The position numbers and the translations under genes are program-made. From NCBI RefSeq assembly GCF_020179475.1, contig NZ_JAILXZ010000004.1, positions 124,001-188,000 of the forward strand: a DNA stretch of 64,000 bases. Direction: 5' to 3'. Origin of the DNA: Novosphingobium huizhouense (GTDB lineage Bacteria > Pseudomonadota > Alphaproteobacteria > Sphingomonadales > Sphingomonadaceae). The notes under the pieces were generated by a model that did no database searches, had not been told where the DNA came from, and saw nothing but the letters and a program-made list of their open reading frames with translations. Position 1 is the stretch's first letter, and each line of letters opens with the position of its first letter. Below, piece by piece: positions 37,993 to 54,665 of the stretch.

Positions 37993-38643
37993 TCACATGT
38001 GCGCGGCGAGCTTGGTATGGTAGGCGTACTTTTCGTATTTCCCGCCATTGTACCCCTTGGCAAAGGCCCTGCAGGTCTCGGGGTCGGACGAGATCGCCTT
38101 CATTTCGTCCTGAAGATGGTTGTGCTCGATGTAGCGGCACAGAAGCTCGTAATGGGTGGCTTCCGATGCGACGGTCGAGAAGGCCAGCGCGAAGGGCGAA
38201 TCGTAATGGAAGGCCGCCCAATACTCGCCCATTACCTGAAACTTGCCCCACGAGCAGGACATGAACGCCGCATCGACCGAACCGGTGACGATGGCGCCGA
38301 CCAGCTTGTCCCAGCTGCTGGTTTCGTAGCCCCCCGACAAGGGATTGCTGAAGGTGCTGACCGAGTACCTGCCGCCGGTGAAGGTGTGGAACTTGTGTCG
38401 TTCGAACAGGATCTTCGGCTTCCCCGAAGCATCGAAGCCCGCACCGCCGGCCTCCACCGCGGCGACGGCGGCGAGTTGCTTGACCGAAACGCCCAGCCTG
38501 TCCGCCACCTTCTGCGCTTCGTCGGCCGAAAGTTTTGCCGGGTGCGGGTTGGTGAAGGCGCTGATCAGCGCGGCGCGTGACTTCTCACCCCAGATGCCGT
38601 CGGGCTTGGCTCCCACGGCCTTCTGCAGATCGACGATGTTCAT
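37993..38643 (-). CDS. phage-type N-acetylmuramidase (endolysin-like)
   Basis: The 216-residue protein starts with a short peptidoglycan-binding-like repeat (VDLQKAVGAKPDGIWGEKSRAAL). The catalytic N-acetylmuramidase domain (DUF3380 type) follows at about 55-210, with AAVEAGGAGFDASGKPKILFERHKFH containing the likely catalytic Glu, then SWGKFQVMGEYW and FAKGYNGGKYEKYAYHTKLA. Such enzymes cut the glycan strand of peptidoglycan and are typical of phage lysis cassettes. No holin, spanin or other phage gene is adjacent, and there is no signal peptide. It may be a prophage relic or a captured cell-wall enzyme. Confidence 0.88.
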   Translation of the reverse strand: MNIVDLQKAVGAKPDGIWGEKSRAALISAFTNPHPAKLSADEAQKVADRLGVSVKQLAAVAAVEAGGAGFDASGKPKILFERHKFHTFTGGRYSVSTFSNPLSGGYETSSWDKLVGAIVTGSVDAAFMSCSWGKFQVMGEYWAAFHYDSPFALAFSTVASEATHYELLCRYIEHNHLQDEMKAISSDPETCRAFAKGYNGGKYEKYAYHTKLAAHM

Positions 38644-44039: not shown

Positions 44040-45113
44040 ATGTCGGAAGGCGTCGGAAAAGTTGCGTTGATCACGGGTGTCACCGGGCAGGACGGGGCTT
44101 ATCTTTCCCGGTTGCTGCTGGAAAAGGGCTATGTTGTCCACGGGGTCAAGCGCCGGTCGTCGTCGTTCAATACCGGTCGTATCGAGGACATCTACGAAGA
44201 CCCGCATGTGGAGCACCAGCGTTTCCACCTGCACTATGGCGACCTGACCGATTCGACCAACCTGATCCGCATCGTCCAGCAGATTCAGCCGGACGAAATC
44301 TACAACCTCGCGGCGCAAAGCCACGTACAGGTCTCGTTCGAGACGCCCGAGTATACCGCAAATGCCGATGCCATCGGCACGCTGCGTCTGCTCGAGGCCA
44401 TCCGCATCCTCGGGCTCGAGAAGAAGACGAAGTTCTACCAGGCCTCGACGTCCGAGCTTTACGGTCTCGTGCAGGAAGTGCCGCAGCGCGAAACTACGCC
44501 GTTCTACCCGCGCTCGCCCTATGGCGTTGCCAAACTCTACGGCTACTGGATCGTGGTCAATTACCGCGAGGCCTATGGTATCCACGCCTCGAACGGCATT
44601 CTCTTCAATCACGAAAGTCCGCTCCGCGGCGAGACGTTCGTGACCCGCAAGATCACGCGGGCCGCGGCGGCAATTGCGTTGGGACGCCAGGATCGGCTTT
44701 ACCTCGGCAACCTCGATGCCAAGCGCGACTGGGGCCATGCCCGGGAATATGTCCGCGGCATGTGGCTCATGCTGCAGCAGGAACAGCCAGACGACTACGT
44801 CCTCGCGACCGGTGAAACCACCGAGGTGCGGGAATTCGTTCGCTGGGCATTCGAGGACGCCGGCATCACCGTCGAGTTCAGGGGCGAGGGTGTCGACGAG
44901 AAGGGGTATTGCGCGAAGACGGGCAAGTGCCTTGTCGAGATCGACCCGCGCTACTTCCGCCCGACCGAGGTGGACCTGCTGATCGGCGATCCGGCCAAGG
45001 CGAAGGAAAAGCTGGGCTGGACGCACGAAATGTCGGCTCGCGAACTGGCGCGGGACATGGTGCTGGCCGACTTGGAAACGATGAAGAGCGCGCCGATCGC
45101 CAAGGACGCGTGA
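44040..45113 (+). CDS. gmd: GDP-mannose 4,6-dehydratase
   Basis: Gmd converts GDP-mannose to GDP-4-keto-6-deoxymannose, the precursor of GDP-L-fucose and GDP-D-rhamnose. The 357-residue short-chain dehydrogenase has the NADP site [20 protein letters not shown] and the specificity region [15 protein letters not shown]. The catalytic Thr-Glu pair is in [14 protein letters not shown], and Tyr/Lys are in [28 protein letters not shown] completes the family pattern. It starts the polysaccharide locus and is followed by a GC-rich hairpin. fcl, the next enzyme, is two genes downstream. Confidence 0.97.
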
Positions 45114-45854: not shown

Positions 45855-47345
45855 ATGAGCTCAACACTGGCCCGGAACGCGGCCTCGGGTGTGGCCCAGG
45901 TCATCGTTTCGGCGGGCTCGCTATTCGTAACCTATCGACTGCTGATGGATTTCCTGTCGGTGCAGGAGATCGGCTTGTGGTCGCTGGTAGTCGGCACGAC
46001 AGCCGTTGCGCGCCTGAGCGAGTTGGGTGTCGGGAACGGTGTGCTGCGTTTCGTTGCCGCGGACGTGGGTTGCGACGATCGCCCGATGGCAGCCAGCACG
46101 ATCGGCATGGCTTTGACTGTCGTGTCTGTGGCGGTCGGACTCGTGGCTCTGGCCGCTTATCCGTTCCTGCTTCGCTACCTGCTCAGCACAACGCCGCTGG
46201 CGCTGCACGCGGGGGTCGAGACGCTGCTGCCGGCCGCGCTCGGCTCGTTGGTCGTGGGTACGACCGCGAACATCTTCATGAGCGGTCTCGACGGATGCCA
46301 GCGAATGGACGTCAGGGTCGGATTGCAGATGGCGTCCAGCGTCATCCAACTCGTGATGACTTATGTGGTTCTGCCCAGGTTCGGCCTGCTCGGACTTGGG
46401 GTCGTGCAATTGGCGCAGGCCGGATTTATCTTCGTCGCCGGAAGTATCGGCCTTGTCCTGCAACTGCGCCAGCCGTTGTCCGCCTACTTGTCCTGGCACG
46501 TGCCGCGCCTCAAGGAAGTGCTGACTTATGGGGGCAGCGTGCAGTTATCGAGCTTTGCGCAGCTGTTGTTCGATCCGGTCTTGAAGGTGCTGCTCAACCA
46601 CTTCGGCGGGCTCGCCATCACGGGATACTACGATATTGCCAATAGGGTCGCGTTGCAGGCCAGATCGCTGATCGTCGCGGCGTATAACGCGCTCGTGCCC
46701 TACGTCGCAGCGAGAGCGGGGCGGGCTGGGCTCGGCCCGGAGGAGATCAGGAAGATCTACTTCGATGCACTCGCTGTGCTTTATCCGGTAATCGTCCCTT
46801 ATTTTTCCATTGTGTTCGCCACGCTGCCGATGGCATTGATCGTTTGGAAGGGGCACTATGACCAAGTGCTGCTGGCAGTCACTTTTGTGCAGTGTCTTGC
46901 TTGGCTTCTTAACACTATCAATCCGCCAGCCTACCTCATCTACATGGCGCTCGGGCAGATGCGATGGATTGTGGCGACGCATCTGCTGGTCGGCAGTCTG
47001 GTCATTGTGCTGGGGTTGCTTCTGGGACCGATGTTTGGTTCTTACGGCGTACTCGCGGCAGGCGCACTGGCGCTTTCGGTGGGCAGCTTTTTCGTCGTCG
47101 TGATGTTCCACCGCGAGTATGGCATTGCCTTCCGGCTGCTGGTGCCGATGCAGCGGTTGCCCGACCTGGTGGTATTGCTGGCCGTGCTCGGCTGTGGCAC
47201 CTGGCTCGCCCGCAGCCCTGAAGCACCCGCCTGGACCGTCCGGTTGGGCCTGCCGCTGGCCGTGGGCTTGTTCGCCGCGGGCAGATTCTGGTTCGACCCT
47301 GTACAACGCAACATTCTGACCAGGCTTAGAGGGGCGCTGCGCTGA
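45855..47345 (+). CDS. wzx: Wzx-type polysaccharide flippase
   Basis: The 496-residue protein has 12-14 membrane helices in the MATE/Wzx pattern. It begins SSTLARNAASGVAQVIVSAG, with ARLSELGVGNGVLRFVA near residue 60, ANIFMSGLDGCQRMDVRVGLQ near 140, and the central LTYGGSVQLSSFAQLLFDPVLKVLLNHF. It should flip lipid-linked repeat units across the inner membrane. The context with wzy and glycosyltransferases supports this. It starts the tight gene run wzx-fcl-wcaI; fcl begins 27 bp after its stop. Confidence 0.88.
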   Translation: MSSTLARNAASGVAQVIVSAGSLFVTYRLLMDFLSVQEIGLWSLVVGTTAVARLSELGVGNGVLRFVAADVGCDDRPMAASTIGMALTVVSVAVGLVALAAYPFLLRYLLSTTPLALHAGVETLLPAALGSLVVGTTANIFMSGLDGCQRMDVRVGLQMASSVIQLVMTYVVLPRFGLLGLGVVQLAQAGFIFVAGSIGLVLQLRQPLSAYLSWHVPRLKEVLTYGGSVQLSSFAQLLFDPVLKVLLNHFGGLAITGYYDIANRVALQARSLIVAAYNALVPYVAARAGRAGLGPEEIRKIYFDALAVLYPVIVPYFSIVFATLPMALIVWKGHYDQVLLAVTFVQCLAWLLNTINPPAYLIYMALGQMRWIVATHLLVGSLVIVLGLLLGPMFGSYGVLAAGALALSVGSFFVVVMFHREYGIAFRLLVPMQRLPDLVVLLAVLGCGTWLARSPEAPAWTVRLGLPLAVGLFAAGRFWFDPVQRNILTRLRGALR

Positions 47346-47372
47346 CGGCGCGGCGAACTGATGGAGTTCCGA

Positions 47373-48320
47373 ATGCATAGTCTCGAAAACAGGCGCATCT
47401 ACGTTGCGGGTCATCGCGGCATGGTCGGGTCCGCGATCGTCCGGAGGCTGGCGGACGAAAACTGTGAAGTCCTCACCTCGGAGCGGTCGACCGACTTGCG
47501 CGAACAGAGGGCAGTGGGAGACTGGTTCGCGCAAAACCGGCCCGATGTCGTCGTGCTGGCCGCCGCCAAGGTCGGCGGCATCCTCGCCAACGACACCTAT
47601 CCGGCCGAGTTCCTCTACGACAATCTGATGATCGAGGCGAATGTCATCGAGGCGGCCCGGCAGGCCGGCGTCGAACGGCTGCTTTTCCTCGGTTCTTCCT
47701 GCATCTATCCCAAGTTCGCGACCCAGCCGATCGTGGAGGATTCGCTCCTGACCGGGCCGCTCGAGCCGACCAATGAATGGTACGCGATCGCAAAGATCGC
47801 AGGAATCAAGCTTTGCCAGGCTTATCGTCGGCAGTACGGCCTTGATTACATCAGCGCCATGCCGACGAACCTGTATGGGCCGGGGGACAATTTCGATCTT
47901 TCTGGAAGCCACGTCCTGCCTGCGTTGATCCGCAAGGCGCACGAAGCGAAACTGGCGGGGCGACCTTCGGTCGAGATCTGGGGTACCGGCACCCCGCGCC
48001 GCGAATTTCTGCACGTGGACGATCTGGCAGATGCCTGCGTCTTCCTCCTCAAGACCTATTCCGGGGAGAGCCACGTCAACGTGGGCAGCGGGACCGACAT
48101 CGCCATCGCCGATCTTGCCGAACTCGTCTGCCGTGTCGTGGGTTTCGAAGGCGAGGTTACCAAGGACACGTCGAAACCCGACGGAACGCCGCGCAAGCTC
48201 ATGGACGGAGGCATGCTGGCGCGCATGGGCTGGACCGCATCGATCTCGCTCGAGGACGGTGTCGAGGGAGCGTACCGCTGGTTTCTCGAAGGACTCGAGA
48301 GCGGGGCAATCCGGGCGTGA
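47373..48320 (+). CDS. fcl: GDP-L-fucose synthase
   Basis: Fcl epimerises and reduces GDP-4-keto-6-deoxymannose to GDP-L-fucose. The 315-residue protein has the NADP site [37 protein letters not shown], the catalytic Ser region [10 protein letters not shown], and Tyr/Lys in [24 protein letters not shown] chose the ATG at 47373 because GGAG stands six bases before it; the ATG at 47361 is the alternative and adds four residues. The last four bases overlap the start of the next gene. Confidence 0.95.
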
Positions 48321-49558
48321 CACGCGCGGCGCCGGTCCTTCTGCTCGGGATCAATTATGCGCCTGAGCCCGTAGGCACCGGTCCTTATACGGCCGGTCTT
48401 GCAGAGGCGCTCGCAGCGGCGGGGCACGAGGTCACCGTCGTTGCCGGGCACCCTTATTATCCACAATGGAAGCGTACGGACGGCTATGGCCCGTTCTGGC
48501 AACGCAGCTCGGAGAACGGGGTCGAGGTTATCCGGTGCCCACACTATGTCCCCCGGCGCCCGAGCGGGCTGCGGCGCATTGTGCACCTGGCAAGCTTTGC
48601 GGGGGCCGCGTTCGGGCCGATGGTTTCCTCGGCGCTCCGCCAACGCCCGCAAGTCGTGATCGTCGTTGCGCCAGCGCTGCTCTCGGTACCGGTCGCATGG
48701 TTCGCAGCCCGGCTGATCGGAGCCAAGCTGTGGATACATGTCCAGGATTTCGAGGTGGATGCGGCGGTCGCGACCGGGCTTGTCGGCGGAGGCGGTCCCC
48801 TGCTGCGACTGGCGCAGTGGTTCGAGCGGACGCTGCTGAGCTCGGCGGACCGCGTGTCGACCATCAGTCCACAGATGTGCGCCAGACTCGCGCTGAAAGG
48901 TGTAGCGCCAGACGCGATCGTCGAAGCGCGCAACTGGGCCAACCTGGCCTATGCCAAGCCTTCCGGGACCGGGTGCGACTATCGCGCACAGTGGGGGCTT
49001 TCCGACCGGCAGGTCGTTCTTTACTCCGGAAACATAGCCAATAAGCAGGGCATCGAAATCATCATCGAGGCAGCGCGCCTCGTCCGGCATCGGCGCGACA
49101 TCGTCTTTGTCATCTGTGGCGAGGGGCCGAATCGCGCGAACTTGGCGCGCCTTGCCGAGACGCTCGACAACGTCCAGCTTCACGATCTCCAGCCGACCGA
49201 GCGGGTCGGCGATCTGCTCGCACTGGCCTCGGTTCATCTGTTGCCGCAGATTCCCGGTGCCGCCGACCTCGTCCTGCCGAGCAAATTGGCGAATATGCTG
49301 GGATCGGGTCGTCCCGTTGTCGCGACCGCAGCGCTTGGCACCGGCATCGCGGTGGAAGTCGAGGGAGCCGGCTTGGTTACCCCCCCGGGCGATGCGCCCG
49401 CCTTGGCGGAGGCCGTCGTCTACCTGATCGATAATCCCGAGGTTGCCCGCCGGCTTGGCGATGAAGGACGGCAGCGCTCGCTCGAGCGCTGGAGCAAATC
49501 CGCTTTGCTCGATCGAATGGTCGAGGGCATTGCTCAAGCCGCTCGAACTCTCCGATAG
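48317..49558 (+). CDS. WcaI-like family 4 glycosyltransferase
   Basis: The 413-residue GT-B enzyme resembles the colanic acid fucosyltransferase Wca[28 protein letters not shown] at the N-terminus, [28 protein letters not shown], then [23 protein letters not shown] opening the second domain and [19 protein letters not shown] as the donor-binding region. A fucosyl donor would fit gmd and fcl upstream, but the sugar is inferred. It starts with GTG overlapping the fcl stop by four bases. Confidence 0.9.
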
Positions 49559-49575
49559 CGGCAACTTTCCTACAG

Positions 49576-49592
49576 ATAACCAAATAGGTTAT
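49576..49592. promoter_or_regulatory. inverted repeat in the leader of the phage-tail-like cassette
   Basis: ATAACC (49576-49581) and GGTTAT (49587-49592) form a 6-bp inverted repeat around AAATA in an AT-rich island of an otherwise GC-rich gene run, followed by TATAAAATT-like sequence and then a near-perfect Shine-Dalgarno AGGAGGT at 49612-49618. This looks like a promoter/operator giving the two following genes their own expression. Confidence 0.4.
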
Positions 49593-49621
49593 AAAATTGA
49601 CCTCTTGCAACAGGAGGTCCC

Positions 49622-50047
49622 ATGTCCCCTTCACCCATTGCAGCCCCCGCTGGCTATGCAACGCCCAATGCGGTGGCCTATGCCGATGTCGACGGCAATG
49701 CAGCCATCGTCAGCAAGGCACAACCGCTTCCGGTTCAGCTCAAGCCTGCACCGGTCAGCCCGCTTGCCGGGACCACCACCACCAGCGTCATTGTCGGCCC
49801 CTACGTTCCCGCCGTCGATCGGCCGATCATCTTGTCGCTCAACGGCACGTGGACGGGACTGGTCAAGGTTTCCCGTTCGACCGATGGCGGCGCAACCCGG
49901 CTGCCCTTGACCCTCGCCGGTACGGCATGGGCGCAGTTCTCCGCCAATGCCTGCGAGCCGATCTGGGAGGAGCCGGAAGCCGGAGCGACGCTATATCTTG
50001 AAGTGACGATGACGTCGGGCACGCTGATCTACAGGCTTGCACAATGA
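49622..50047 (+). CDS. phage virion-like small protein (fibre or baseplate accessory type)
   Basis: The 141-residue protein starts with a flexible region rich in Ala and Pro (SPIAAPAGYATPNAVAYADV, then QPLPVQLKPAPV). It ends in a compact beta-rich domain, about residues 50-141, with PIILSLNGTWTGLVKVSRST, DGGATRLPLTLAGTAWAQF, PIWEEPEAGATLYLEVTM and a closing LIYRLAQ strand. The same composition and motifs occur in prophage structural proteins of sphingomonads as I know them. There is no signal peptide. It has the strongest ribosome binding site of the locus and overlaps the tailspike-like gene by four bases (ATGA). Confidence 0.65.
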   Translation: MSPSPIAAPAGYATPNAVAYADVDGNAAIVSKAQPLPVQLKPAPVSPLAGTTTTSVIVGPYVPAVDRPIILSLNGTWTGLVKVSRSTDGGATRLPLTLAGTAWAQFSANACEPIWEEPEAGATLYLEVTMTSGTLIYRLAQ

Positions 50048-51825
50048 GCCTCGACGCAATCGCCCGGGGCCTGGCGAACAAGGCCCAGAACGCAATCGCC
50101 GAGGGCAATCTTCCCTACGCGATGTCGTCGAACTTCGGTTCCGGCACCGTCGGGCGAAAACTCCAGGAAGTGCTCAGTGCGCGCGACTTCGGTGCGAAAG
50201 GTGACGGCAAGTCCGCATTTTCGGGCGCCATGACCGCCGGCAGTGCCGTACTTGCCGTCAGCTTGTCGGGCTTTCCCGGCGGCTTCGTCGCAAGCGACAT
50301 CGGCAAGATCGTGAGCGTGCCGGGCGCAGCGGCCGCAGGTGCCAATCTCACCACCACGATCGTGGCGGTCAACTCGACCTCGAGCGTAACCCTCGCTTCC
50401 CCTGCCGGGACCACCGTCTCGGGGAAGCAGATCACGTTCGGGACAGACGATACGAGCGCCATGCAGGCTTTCGTGACCTACCTTGCCAACAATATGCGAC
50501 AGGGCTTCGTCCCGGGCGGGACATATTGCCTGAACGGTCCGATCAACACGCCCCACAGGCAGGGTTGGGGGATCTCCGGGAACGGCCCGGAATCGACCAT
50601 TTTCAGCCAGTTCGCCGACAATGTACCGATCATCGACCTAGGCGCCGGAACGACACAGGCCGTCGATGCGGGAGGCTTTCACACCCTGCTGCTTGAGGAC
50701 TTCCGCCTGTCCTATGCGGCACCGCAGCCGGTAACCAACACCAGCGCCGCATGTCTTGCGTTTTCCTCGATGGTCTACTGGTCGACAATCCGCAGAATCA
50801 CGTTCGAGAAGGGCTACGACGGAATCAAGGTCCGCCCAACGCGCCCCGGGCCATGGGGGTCGAACTGGGATGATTTGCGCTTCCGCTCGTCGAACGGGGA
50901 GTATCTCTCAGGTTGTGCGATGGATTGGACCGGCGTGGTCCAGGGCTGCCCGAATAACCGTTGGGGTCGCATGACAATCGAGATGGGAGGCATGTCAAAG
51001 CCCGCTTTCAACCAAATCCGCGGGTATAACTGGGAAATCGATACGCTCGAATTCCTAGGAAACAAAGCACCTAACTCGGCAGGCGGGACCGGGCAGATGC
51101 TGCTAAATCTCCAGTCAGGCAGTCAGGTGAGCATCGGCTCGATCAAGCTCGAGACCTTCGACATCGGTGGTCCCGCTGGTTACTTTGCCAACAATTCCTT
51201 GATCTATGTGCCTTCGTGCATCATCAACATCCGGCATTTATCGTTCTCTGGTAATACTGCTACGAACGATGACCGATTTGCAACAACCGGGACATTGGCG
51301 ATCATCGGCGGGCCGGCAACACAAGTTATCGTCGATACCTTTGTATCTCTCACGAACCAGGCCTCGAATATCGTCTGGTCGGCAATTTCCGGCGGCGTTG
51401 TCGAGCTGGGCAATTACTACAATGGTGGTTATGCAGGCATCTTGCCGCTCACTTCGATCGGAGGGGGCACCGGTGCCGAGTTCCTGACCTATCGGCCGAA
51501 CGCGCAACGACGGCTTTCGCCGGACATCGGTGATGCGAACTACGCCATCGCGACCAACGGCGGCGCCAACGTGATCATGGCGCAGACGGCGCTTACCGCG
51601 TCGCGGACGGTCGAGATCATGGCCGACAGCAATTACCTGCACAACGGTTATACCGTCACCGTCATTTCGCGCGGCGCGGTCAACGGTGCTAATACGCTGG
51701 TAATCAAAGCGGGCGGGATCACCAAGGCTACGCTCACCGCCGACAACACCGCCGTTGAACTGACCTGGCGGCGCAATCCGACTGCGCACAACGGATGGGT
51801 CGTTACCCGGCAAGGAGCAGTCTGA
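50044..51825 (+). CDS. tailspike-like pectate-lyase-fold protein
   Basis: The 593-residue protein has an N-terminal helix-rich head (MSLDAIARGLANKAQNAIAE). The pectate lyase superfamily entry motif follows at about residues 45-58 (LSARDFGAKGDGKS), then a long right-handed beta-helix with GYDGIKVRPTRPGPWGSNWD, up to about 500. A small C-terminal domain (IMAQTALTASRTVEIMADSN, then the tail VELTWRRNPTAHNGWVV) is of the kind that caps phage tail proteins. Phage tailspikes with this fold cut capsule or O-antigen. No signal peptide is present. Placed between glycosyltransferase genes, it may cut or shape the polysaccharide made here. GC is lower than in the flanks. Confidence 0.75.
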   Translation: MSLDAIARGLANKAQNAIAEGNLPYAMSSNFGSGTVGRKLQEVLSARDFGAKGDGKSAFSGAMTAGSAVLAVSLSGFPGGFVASDIGKIVSVPGAAAAGANLTTTIVAVNSTSSVTLASPAGTTVSGKQITFGTDDTSAMQAFVTYLANNMRQGFVPGGTYCLNGPINTPHRQGWGISGNGPESTIFSQFADNVPIIDLGAGTTQAVDAGGFHTLLLEDFRLSYAAPQPVTNTSAACLAFSSMVYWSTIRRITFEKGYDGIKVRPTRPGPWGSNWDDLRFRSSNGEYLSGCAMDWTGVVQGCPNNRWGRMTIEMGGMSKPAFNQIRGYNWEIDTLEFLGNKAPNSAGGTGQMLLNLQSGSQVSIGSIKLETFDIGGPAGYFANNSLIYVPSCIINIRHLSFSGNTATNDDRFATTGTLAIIGGPATQVIVDTFVSLTNQASNIVWSAISGGVVELGNYYNGGYAGILPLTSIGGGTGAEFLTYRPNAQRRLSPDIGDANYAIATNGGANVIMAQTALTASRTVEIMADSNYLHNGYTVTVISRGAVNGANTLVIKAGGITKATLTADNTAVELTWRRNPTAHNGWVVTRQGAV

Positions 51826-51963
51826 CGACTCTGTCCAGCAACGTCGATGCAAGGGGGCGGTGCTGCAGGCGCGTCGTCCCCTTGTTGCCGGATTTTGCCG
51901 ACGGGCCGACGCCGCGACCTTTTCTGGTTGCAACGCAGCAAGGAATTGCCTTTAACGCGGCGC

Positions 51964-53193
51964 ATGACCAACCGTGGGCGCCACCCGACGATCGGCCTGA
52001 TATGGTCGCAGTTCTCGGCGTACCATGTCGACCGCCTCGAGGCGGTCGGCCGTCGCCTCGCAGGCCGCGCGCGCGTTCTTTCGGTTGAAGTCGCCTCCAA
52101 GTCGGCAACATATGCTTGGGATCCTTCCGGTGAAGTTGCCGGAACGGAAAAGATCCGGCTTTTTCCCGGCGAATCGCACGAACGGATTTCGATCTGGCGG
52201 CGGTTTCGCGCTGAGTGGACGGCGCTGCGAGCTTGCGATGTCGTTTTTGTCGGCGTCGCCTACAGCCAGCCCGACATCATTCTCCTGTCCTATGTATTGC
52301 GCGCGCTCGGAAAGCGCGTGGTCATGATGACGGCTTCCAAGTTCGACGACTTTCAGCGCAAGTCTACGCGGGAATTGTTCAAGCGACTGCTCCTCAGCCC
52401 CTATTCAGCAGCGATTGTCGGCGGTCGGCGGCAATTCGAATATGTGCGTTTCCTCGGGTTCGACGGCAGGCCGGTTCTTCCGGGCTACAACACCGTCAGC
52501 ATGGAGCGGGTCCGCCATCAGGCCGAATCCGCAGATGCGAGATCTGACGCTACGCCATTCGACGCGCGCAGCTTTGTGTTCGTGGGTCGCTTCGTCGAAA
52601 AGAAGAACATCGAGCGCATGCTCAAGGCCTATGCCAGCTACGTGCATGCCCACGGAGGACCTCATGGCGCAGGGGTGAAGCGGCTGACGATGATCGGCGA
52701 TGGCCCATTGCGTGCAGCAATCGACGCGCGATGCGCGGATCTCGGCATCGCCGAAATGGTCGATTTTCCTGGTTTCCTGCCGGCGGATCAGGTTTCAGCC
52801 CGCCTGGCGCGTTCGCTGGCGCTGGTTCTCGTCAGCGAGGAAGAGCAATGGGGCCTGGTCATCAACGAAGCGCTGGCGGTCGGCCTCCCGATCCTCGCCA
52901 GCGCCGAAGTCGGCGCCCGCGAGGCGTTGGTTCGCAATCTCGAGAACGGCATCGTGGTCGAGGCGGGCGCATTGGAGGGCATTGCGAGAGCTTTTGGGCA
53001 GATCGCTGACAATGAGGCAGCCTGGCAGGCCATGTCCTCTGCATCGCGTGCACGAAGCTGGCATGCCGATACCGAACGATTCGCCGACGCCGTGGAATTG
53101 ATGGTGTTCCCGGGATCCGAGCCGGCCGCAGCGAACCACGCGCGCTTTGCTTCGGAGATCCTGATCGATGCCTGCCGGGTCGCCTGCGTATGA
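51964..53193 (+). CDS. family 4 glycosyltransferase
   Basis: The 409-residue GT-B enzyme has an N-terminal acceptor domain (PTIGLIWSQFSAYHVDRLEAV, VVFVGVAYSQPDIILLSYVLRAL). The donor domain begins with RSFVFVGRFVEKKNIERMLKAY and carries the EX7E-like sequence SEEEQWGLVINEALAVGLPI. The acceptor and sugar are unknown. The ATG at 51964 is chosen since conservation begins about seven residues later; 138 bp separate it from the tailspike-like gene. Its stop overlaps the wzy start by four bases. Confidence 0.88.
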   Translation: MTNRGRHPTIGLIWSQFSAYHVDRLEAVGRRLAGRARVLSVEVASKSATYAWDPSGEVAGTEKIRLFPGESHERISIWRRFRAEWTALRACDVVFVGVAYSQPDIILLSYVLRALGKRVVMMTASKFDDFQRKSTRELFKRLLLSPYSAAIVGGRRQFEYVRFLGFDGRPVLPGYNTVSMERVRHQAESADARSDATPFDARSFVFVGRFVEKKNIERMLKAYASYVHAHGGPHGAGVKRLTMIGDGPLRAAIDARCADLGIAEMVDFPGFLPADQVSARLARSLALVLVSEEEQWGLVINEALAVGLPILASAEVGAREALVRNLENGIVVEAGALEGIARAFGQIADNEAAWQAMSSASRARSWHADTERFADAVELMVFPGSEPAAANHARFASEILIDACRVACV

Positions 53194-54665
53194 TTGATGC
53201 CGGCGACCTCGACAGCAGCCGGCCCCGGTCCAGGGTGGGAGCGATGATCCGTCCCCGTGCCTTGGGAGTTCCCGCTGTCCGCCATGGCCAAGGGGAGACG
53301 AGCGCCCACAGTGCCCTGCTGATCGCGTTCGTCACCGCGGTCGGTGCCTGGATGCTGGACTTTCATGCCGATCAAGGAAGTGGCGGTGCGCGCAACATCC
53401 AGGCTTTGTTTCTCGGCACCTACGGTCTTTCGACGTTCGTTTTCCTGCTGCTTGATCAGGCGGACCGGTACCGTGCTCCGGGCCTAGGGCTATTTGTCAT
53501 TTCTGGCGTGCTGTTCCTTACCGTCGGTCCAATAAGTGCTCTACTCAACGGGCAGGAATTGAGCGTTATAATCAGTGCCAGCGTGGGCACGCTGCTGTAC
53601 TTTTCGGTAAGCTACATGACCTGCCGGATCGTGATGGTAAGCGATCCTGGGCGCGTCCGCCGGGCGCTCGCAGTCCTGTGCCTTGCCTTCATTCTGTTGG
53701 GCGTTGTCGTTCTAAGGTTTAACTCAGGCTCAATCGACTTTTCGAGTACGAGGTATGAGATCCTCAGCGGCGCGACCATTCCGGCGCTGGGCTATATCGA
53801 GTGCATGATCCTGTTTGGCCTTTCGATCACCGAGGCTGCAGGTGTATTCAGCGGGACGATCCTTGTTGTCCTCTCGGTCACGCGAACGTACCTCATCAGC
53901 GCTCTCGTGCAGTTCATTGCGCTGCTTCTTGGCTGGCGCACGCTGCTGCTGCCTCGGCTTCCACTGGTCTTCGCCGTTGGCACGATTGCGGCTGCCGGAA
54001 TGGTCGTGTTCGGCGGGAGCGAACTCGATCGCTGGAGCGACCGCATATTTGCCCAGCGCACACGAAGCGGCGAGGACTACACCTACTACACGCGCAAGTC
54101 CGAGTGGGACTACATGATCGGTGCGTTCACCCGGAGCAATCGCACGATCCTCTTCGGCAACGGGATCGCGGCGCGGACGATCTGGTACAACCCGCGCGAG
54201 ATCGGTGGCGGCGTCGCGCTAGGTTCGGTCGGCTTTGGCCATGGCGAGCATATCAGCTTGCTGTTCATCGGCGGGCTGGTCGGCGGCGGACTGCTGTTGG
54301 TGCTGCAGTTCGTCCAGGCGATCCAGTCGTTCCAGTTGCTGGCGCGCCTCGCCTTGCGCCCGCGGGAGAACTCCGACCTGCTGTTCCTGGCGGGCTGGGG
54401 TGCGACAATCATCCTCGGTGCGTTCGCGGCAAATTTCTTTTCCTCGATCCTCGGCAACCGAAGTTGGGCGCTGTGGTATGGCGTCGGGACCGGATTGTTT
54501 CTCGGCGCGCGCGCGCGATACCTGCGTGCGCACGAAACGCCGTCCGGGGCCACTGCCGCGGCCCGACCGAAAGGCCGGCAATTGTCCGGCTTGCGCCAGC
54601 CGCCCGGCGTTCCGTCCGCCGTCGCCCGCCGCAGGCGTGCTCTTGCTCTCCCTCCCCGCCCATGA
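53190..54665 (+). CDS. wzy: Wzy-type O-antigen/exopolysaccharide polymerase
   Basis: The 491-residue protein has a polar N-terminus of about 40 residues and about eleven membrane helices. A large periplasmic loop after the seventh or eighth helix contains RTRSGEDYTYYTRKSEWDYMIGAF and FGNGIAARTIWYNP, then FGHGEHISLLFIGGLVGG; this is the usual polymerase layout (loop with H and R residues). Polymerases are poorly conserved, so the call rests on topology, loop and operon position. The C-terminal 55 residues are basic and proline-rich. ATGA overlaps join it to both neighbours. Confidence 0.82.
   Translation: MIDAGDLDSSRPRSRVGAMIRPRALGVPAVRHGQGETSAHSALLIAFVTAVGAWMLDFHADQGSGGARNIQALFLGTYGLSTFVFLLLDQADRYRAPGLGLFVISGVLFLTVGPISALLNGQELSVIISASVGTLLYFSVSYMTCRIVMVSDPGRVRRALAVLCLAFILLGVVVLRFNSGSIDFSSTRYEILSGATIPALGYIECMILFGLSITEAAGVFSGTILVVLSVTRTYLISALVQFIALLLGWRTLLLPRLPLVFAVGTIAAAGMVVFGGSELDRWSDRIFAQRTRSGEDYTYYTRKSEWDYMIGAFTRSNRTILFGNGIAARTIWYNPREIGGGVALGSVGFGHGEHISLLFIGGLVGGGLLLVLQFVQAIQSFQLLARLALRPRENSDLLFLAGWGATIILGAFAANFFSSILGNRSWALWYGVGTGLFLGARARYLRAHETPSGATAAARPKGRQLSGLRQPPGVPSAVARRRRALALPPRP

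Follow-up and report, generated by a model that had tools for sequence, protein, structure and literature searches.

Why should two intact genes that resemble parts of a phage particle stand in the middle of a polysaccharide operon? This question is raised by a locus of Novosphingobium huizhouense in a window of 64,000 nucleotides (the whole stretch of DNA that was analysed), which is part of contig 44 of a genome of 3.67 Mb with 100% completeness. A sequence-only reading had described the two products as a small virion-like protein and a tailspike-like beta-helix protein, and it had left their function open among a trimming enzyme, a decoy or weapon, and a phage-tail-like device.

The SMALL/SPIKE pair in its polysaccharide locus

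The two genes, here called SMALL and SPIKE, are joined by a 4-base overlap (ATGA), and both frames are intact. Their position between a WcaI-like glycosyltransferase and a glycosyltransferase/wzy pair had already been proposed, and both the coordinates and the family matches agree with it; gmd, wzx and fcl all lie upstream of the pair. SMALL and SPIKE are 67% and 62% identical, respectively, to counterparts at the equivalent place in another genome, and given these counterparts we take both frames to be real genes. As had been noted before, no signal peptide is seen in either protein when judged by eye. The features of the locus are:

44040–45113, + strand: gmd (GDP-mannose dehydratase-like), read from sequence; retained near the pair in G048, G033 and other genomes
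45855–47345, + strand: Wzx-like flippase, by size, hydrophobicity and position; without Pfam match
47361–48320, + strand: fcl-like epimerase/reductase (PF01370, 7e-68)
48317–49558, + strand: WcaI-family glycosyltransferase upstream of the pair (NF007640, 3e-139)
49566–49592, + strand: promoter block TTTCCTACA-GA-TAACCAAATAGGTTA, consisting of the conserved element TTTCCTACA and the palindrome TAACCAAATAGGTTA that is also present at the head-tail promoter of the strain's gene transfer agent (GTA)
49612–49617, + strand: ribosome-binding site of SMALL, AGGAGG
49622–50047, + strand: SMALL, 141 aa, ATG start; predicted beta-sandwich, proposed spike base
50044–51825, + strand: SPIKE, 593 aa, ATG start; predicted tailspike-like right-handed beta-helix, proposed polysaccharide-binding or -depolymerising fibre
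50044–50076, + strand: N-terminal motif MSLDAIARGLA of SPIKE, all that otherwise unrelated spikes have in common; proposed to anchor SPIKE to SMALL
51847–53193, + strand: GT4 glycosyltransferase downstream of the pair (PF00534, 5e-25); the start may be 51964
53190–54665, + strand: Wzy-like O-antigen polymerase/ligase, a membrane protein (Wzy_C, 1.4e-4, below the Pfam cut-off)

Searches with SMALL against Pfam, PHROGs and NCBIfam gave nothing meaningful. Its structure model is confident (pLDDT 89.6) and predicts a beta-sandwich that resembles capsid turret and cement proteins of phages. The best solved match is YomS (Z 10.6 over 102 of 112 residues, 12% identity); other solved folds are the cement protein of Helicobacter phage KHP40, the HFTV1 turret, STIV A223 and the capsid protein of phage VP1, and since Z scores of about 8 are common for beta-sandwiches only YomS stands out. 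YomS and XepA are Bacillus prophage proteins of a lytic cassette, i. e. of another context. With Foldseek, SMALL had no match under 0.001 in the PDB; the base protein (Rcc01079) of the head spike of RcGTA, the GTA of Rhodobacter capsulatus, was absent among the matches listed there as well as among the other structural matches listed for SMALL, a profile built from SMALL hit none of the RcGTA chains in the PDB, and no sequence match of the pair to Rcc01079 or Rcc01080 was found.

The beta-helix of SPIKE is visible only through structure: there was no Pfam match at E<=1, and no Laminin_G_3 domain by Pfam. The model, of moderate confidence (mean pLDDT 66, about 75–92 over most of residues 130–340 and low at the N-terminus), is a right-handed beta-helix with the tailspike of Acinetobacter phage AS12 as its best match (Z 28.7), and the further matches include the DpK2 and Depo32 depolymerases, alginate epimerases and lyases. 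Thus, structure prediction and fold comparison returned for the two proteins the virion-type fold (by the matches to YomS, the KHP40 cement protein and the HFTV1 turret) and the tailspike fold that the sequence-only reading had anticipated. SPIKE shares the right-handed beta-helix with the tailspike depolymerases of phages (AS12 gp42, DpK2, Depo32, HK620; Z 24–29); unlike these, it has no phage anchoring domain and is encoded with polysaccharide genes outside any phage.

At 68 loci, a single large gene comes after SMALL, and 54 of these pairs have the same ATGA overlap; the bodies of the large proteins are beta-helices or GDSL hydrolases, mostly of 400–770 aa. These bodies are mostly without similarity to one another, and some sister spikes match the head decoration PHROG. 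What is kept is an N-terminus of about 11 residues: nearly all spikes start with M-S-x-D-x-x-A-R-G-L-A or, in Qipengyuania and its kin, with M-x-A-L-x-L-P-A-L-G-L-A. The ARGL-type motif was counted in 44 of the 68 spikes as compared to 18 of 544 other proteins, and the ALxLxxLGLA-type in 17 of 68 as compared to none of 544. A short conserved N-terminus in front of variable bodies is the pattern of a docking peptide, and this suggests such a role here. Two spike-like proteins (L059, L066) have a signal-peptide-like start, Tat-like in L066, that precedes DPxARGLx, suggesting that some versions of the spike are exported.

SMALL itself appears to be modular. A third unit under the full promoter block (L188:2422-3783; the orthologues in G048 and G033, at L162 and L169, have 350 aa) encodes a protein of 453 aa, and the first 40 residues of this protein and of SMALL share 43% identity. 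Since this module of about 40 residues recurs in another protein linked to the same operator, the N-terminus of SMALL looks like a shared docking module.

The promoter block and the GTA cluster

The same genome carries, on contig 53 and thus away from the pair, a complete RcGTA-like head-tail cluster with portal, HK97 capsid, distal tail protein of the Rcc01695 family, hub, a megatron-like gene 15 and a DUF2793 tail fibre. The closest PDB match of the capsid is Rcc01687 of RcGTA (3e-82), and the product of gene 15 matches NF048004 with an E-value of 1e-108, which is below the family cut-off as the protein is shorter. GTA_TIM (PF13547) is absent from gene 15 here and in 98 relatives, so that it is useless as a GTA marker for these genomes, and TIGR02217 was used instead.

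Upstream of SMALL, almost every homologous locus has the block TTTTCCTACA together with TAACC-N5-GGTTA; in genomes of the Erythrobacteraceae type the palindrome lies one helical turn further downstream, and at about eight SMALL loci it is divergent or missing. In this genome and many others, GTA gene 1 is preceded by the same palindrome, which lies directly upstream of a sigma-70-like promoter (TTGACA-17-TACATA). When a matrix trained only on the SMALL promoters of other genomes was run over 103 kb of this genome, its top-ranking site was the SMALL promoter (49576), with the GTA promoter in second place. Among 587 upstream regions, scores of at least 14.5 bits were reached by this SMALL promoter, five GTA gene-1 promoters (all five that were scored, each counted with the gene that diverges from it) and a single further intergenic site. 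When 20 whole genomes were scanned with a pattern that covers both spacing forms, each had 0–4 sites besides the repeat family of this genome, and about three quarters of the non-repeat sites belong to SMALL, to GTA gene 1 or to the third unit with the SMALL-like N-terminus; the exact composite pattern occurs once per genome. The pair is thus predicted to be co-regulated with the GTA cluster through a shared operator.

A further gene also speaks for a link of this operator to GTA control. GafA, the activator of RcGTA, binds its own promoter as well as the GTA promoter and is annotated as DUF6456 (PMC9638019). Of 16 genomes, 9 have the palindrome upstream of the gene for a GafA-like DUF6456 regulator. 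The element TTTCCTAC stands before DUF6456 in the Novosphingobium genomes without the palindrome at this position, and it does so in the genome studied here as well.

CtrA, LexA and sphingan lyases were each considered as the basis of the palindrome or the pair, and none of them found support. About eight copies of an intergenic repeat of about 100 bp, in which the same palindrome occurs as ATAACCTATATGGTTA, are scattered over this genome (L159, L172, L180, L186), and a related copy is present in G015 (L164); this repeat could be a titration element or a coincidence. Moreover, many GTA gene-1 promoters of Novosphingobium (L116, L122-L140) have a -10 region that overlaps with GTAC-N7-GAAC, a sequence similar to the LexA box of alphaproteobacteria, and SOS control is possible.

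Distribution of the pair and co-variation with its neighbours

SMALL is present in 29 of 99 relatives, and the pair, intact in most of the genomes that carry it, recurs in Novosphingobium, Qipengyuania, Croceicoccus and related genera in the same chromosomal contexts. Had homologues been confined to complete prophages, the sequence-only reading would have lost its ground; instead, the pair is conserved in related polysaccharide loci. A GT4-type glycosyltransferase lies within 7.5 kb of the pair at 34 of 44 loci, and at several of the remaining ten the pair directly follows lptC-lptA. No match to SMALL was found in 50,697 phage records or in plasmid collections, and viral contigs gave just two weak ones; in prophage-like tail regions (L063-L068), there are relatives with less than about 45% identity.

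The survey of homologous loci that had been suggested showed that the spike bodies vary, and that they do so together with the neighbouring genes. With SMALL controlled for, similarity of the SPIKE bodies tracks that of the neighbours (partial Mantel, partial r 0.45, p 0.0004, for 23 Novosphingobium-type loci with a glycosyltransferase nearby; partial r 0.48 over all 44 loci), and this co-variation may in part reflect joint inheritance of the region.

The presence of SMALL follows that of a GTA as a weak trend and not as strict co-occurrence: among 398 Sphingomonadales genomes, the GTA gene-12 family was detected in 30 of the 44 with full-length SMALL and in 202 of the 354 without. At least eight near-complete genomes, Qipengyuania genomes among them, have SMALL and SPIKE intact with neither the gene-12 family nor the capsid detected. 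Two of these cases without a detected capsid, G109 and G302, retain the GTA promoter and remnant genes, which fits a recent loss of the GTA, but the pair may also have a second role. Decaying GTA clusters (L189, L190, L191) are reduced to genes 1-2 and the tail fibre in G302 and to genes 1 and 13 in G109, where SPIKE is an intact frame of 650 aa; in G029, GTA genes 2-8 are lost and the spike is truncated to 260 aa. Of 20 genomes that lack the gene-12 marker, 3 have a broken spike, as compared to 2 of the 43 that have it, a difference that is not convincing.

A candidate polysaccharide-directed GTA spike and its alternatives

We think it likely that SMALL and SPIKE are the base and the fibre of a polysaccharide-directed spike on the RcGTA-like GTA of the strain. 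This reading is based on the operator that both promoters have, on the presence of a GTA cluster in this genome and on the arrangement of the head spike in RcGTA; the structural matches of the two proteins, the head decoration matches of sister spikes and the co-variation of SPIKE bodies with the neighbouring genes are also in its favour. Such an accessory spike of a GTA had not been named among the functions that the sequence-only reading left open. We infer the location on the particle, the contact between base and fibre, the enzymatic action and the self-specificity as the steps of the following scheme. Upon GTA induction, the activator of the head-tail promoter would also fire the promoter in front of SMALL. 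SMALL would assemble on the particle, probably at the capsid vertices, docking via its N-terminal module, and hold SPIKE by the first eleven or so residues of the latter. The body of SPIKE would bind, and probably cut or deacylate, the polysaccharide specified by the neighbouring genes, and the spike would thus help released particles to attach to sister cells and to pass their coat. SPIKE may plausibly act as an enzyme on the polymer that the strain itself makes. Since the genes for spike and coat sit together, they could be exchanged or replaced together.

In Rhodobacter capsulatus, the RcGTA spike is a pentamer of a jellyroll base with one fibre that is held by residues 2-10, IALGLGLGL (PMC7296036). 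SMALL and SPIKE resemble this spike in several respects: the RcGTA base GhsA (Rcc01079) and fibre GhsB (Rcc01080) are encoded by two genes outside the head-tail cluster and next to capsule genes, the partners have the same order, a small base, in our case a predicted beta-sandwich, is combined with a fibre that has a short conserved N-terminus, in our case proposed as the anchor, and control is linked to the GTA, which in our case is predicted from the operator. There are also differences. The RcGTA fibre is lectin-like and has 325 aa, whereas the fibres of the SMALL loci have enzyme-like bodies that are replaced from locus to locus, and the start MxALxLPALGLA of the Qipengyuania fibres resembles the RcGTA anchor peptide closely, the MSLDAIARGLA of this genome less so. 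This looser motif, the lack of a match to the RcGTA base and the deviant palindromes count against a GTA spike, as do the weak co-occurrence and the intact pairs in genomes without a detectable GTA.

An intact-looking podovirus prophage is present in the same genome (L230, L231, L039; G000:C11 ~655-696 kb). Its tailspike (L039:8912-10585) is 44% identical to residues 87–592 of SPIKE and differs at the N-terminus; the same binding body on two particles suggests that SPIKE targets the strain's own surface.

The findings may also be read in other ways. SPIKE might be a host polysaccharide-processing enzyme of phage origin that trims or releases the polymer of the cluster, with SMALL as its chaperone or carrier and the GTA link limited to shared regulation. 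Such an enzyme would explain the place of the pair inside a polysaccharide operon, its retention in genomes without detectable GTA and the signal-peptide-like starts of the two related spikes, and it has a precedent in WelR, a sphingan lyase with a beta-helix and no signal peptide whose gene belongs to the predicted wel (welan) biosynthesis cluster (PMC7899989). WelR, GelR and SpsR, the sphingan lyases, come from predicted sphingan biosynthesis clusters and are like SPIKE in having a beta-helix and no signal peptide; however, no SMALL partner is reported for sphingan lyases, and WelR has the Laminin_G_3 domain. That the pair has its own promoter with the GTA operator, that a virion-type partner is always upstream of the spike, that only a docking-peptide-like motif is kept and that most spikes have no export signal makes the host enzyme unlikely in our view.

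Rather more doubtful still is a soluble depolymerase that is co-induced with the GTA, freed at lysis and not fixed to the particle, and that clears the matrix around the producers. The operator common to the pair and the GTA would suit it, and so would TspA (Rcc02623) of RcGTA, a loosely attached biofilm-degrading tailspike that is confined to Rhodobacterales and missing in all other GTA bearers (PMC13420450). Against it, both the existence of a beta-sandwich partner and the conservation of the N-terminal peptide suggest that SPIKE is firmly attached. TspA and SPIKE have in common that they are tailspike-type depolymerases produced with a GTA, in the case of SPIKE as a proposal, but TspA is a baseplate-attached trimer encoded at its own locus, whereas SPIKE has a separate small partner and is found in polysaccharide loci. 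We give hardly any weight to an ordinary prophage remnant or receptor-binding module, or a part of a tailocin. The distant SMALL relatives in prophage-like tail regions and the similar prophage tailspike of the strain are in its favour, yet adjacent virion genes are absent, SMALL is nearly unmatched among phages and viral contigs, the frames are undecayed, and the pair recurs across genera. The earlier judgement had been that a prophage remnant is less likely, and the findings agree that the pair is not one.

A GTA spike of this kind would have implications beyond the locus. GTA theory requires that transfer is directed to kin, and capsule binding by a head spike, known in detail only in R. 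capsulatus, has been proposed as the filter. Our literature search, for which preprints and subscription papers were mostly out of reach, found no description of GTA spikes in Sphingomonadales. If our reading is true, the cassette fills the gap left in Sphingomonadales by the absence of TspA outside Rhodobacterales, the genome alone marks which polysaccharide each GTA targets, a readable operator adds components to the GTA that lie outside its head-tail cluster, and the loci provide many depolymerases with matching polysaccharides. For the broader idea that the GTAs of Sphingomonadales carry an exchangeable, enzyme-armed spike encoded in the very polysaccharide locus that it recognises, with coat and spike as one cassette and transfer tuned to cells with the same coat, we see the chances as evenly balanced.

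The sequence-only reading had also stated that no other virion gene is present. This is true for the polysaccharide cluster, but not for the genome with its GTA cluster and podovirus prophage, nor for the window, which contains a gene for a phage-type N-acetylmuramidase/endolysin at 37993-38643 on the - strand (PF11860, 6e-33). No GTA operator was found at this gene, which stands alone beside a uracil-DNA glycosylase gene. Its product shares 55% identity with the endolysin encoded by the podovirus prophage of the strain; the gene might serve in lysis for the release of the GTA, or it might be a stray from a phage.
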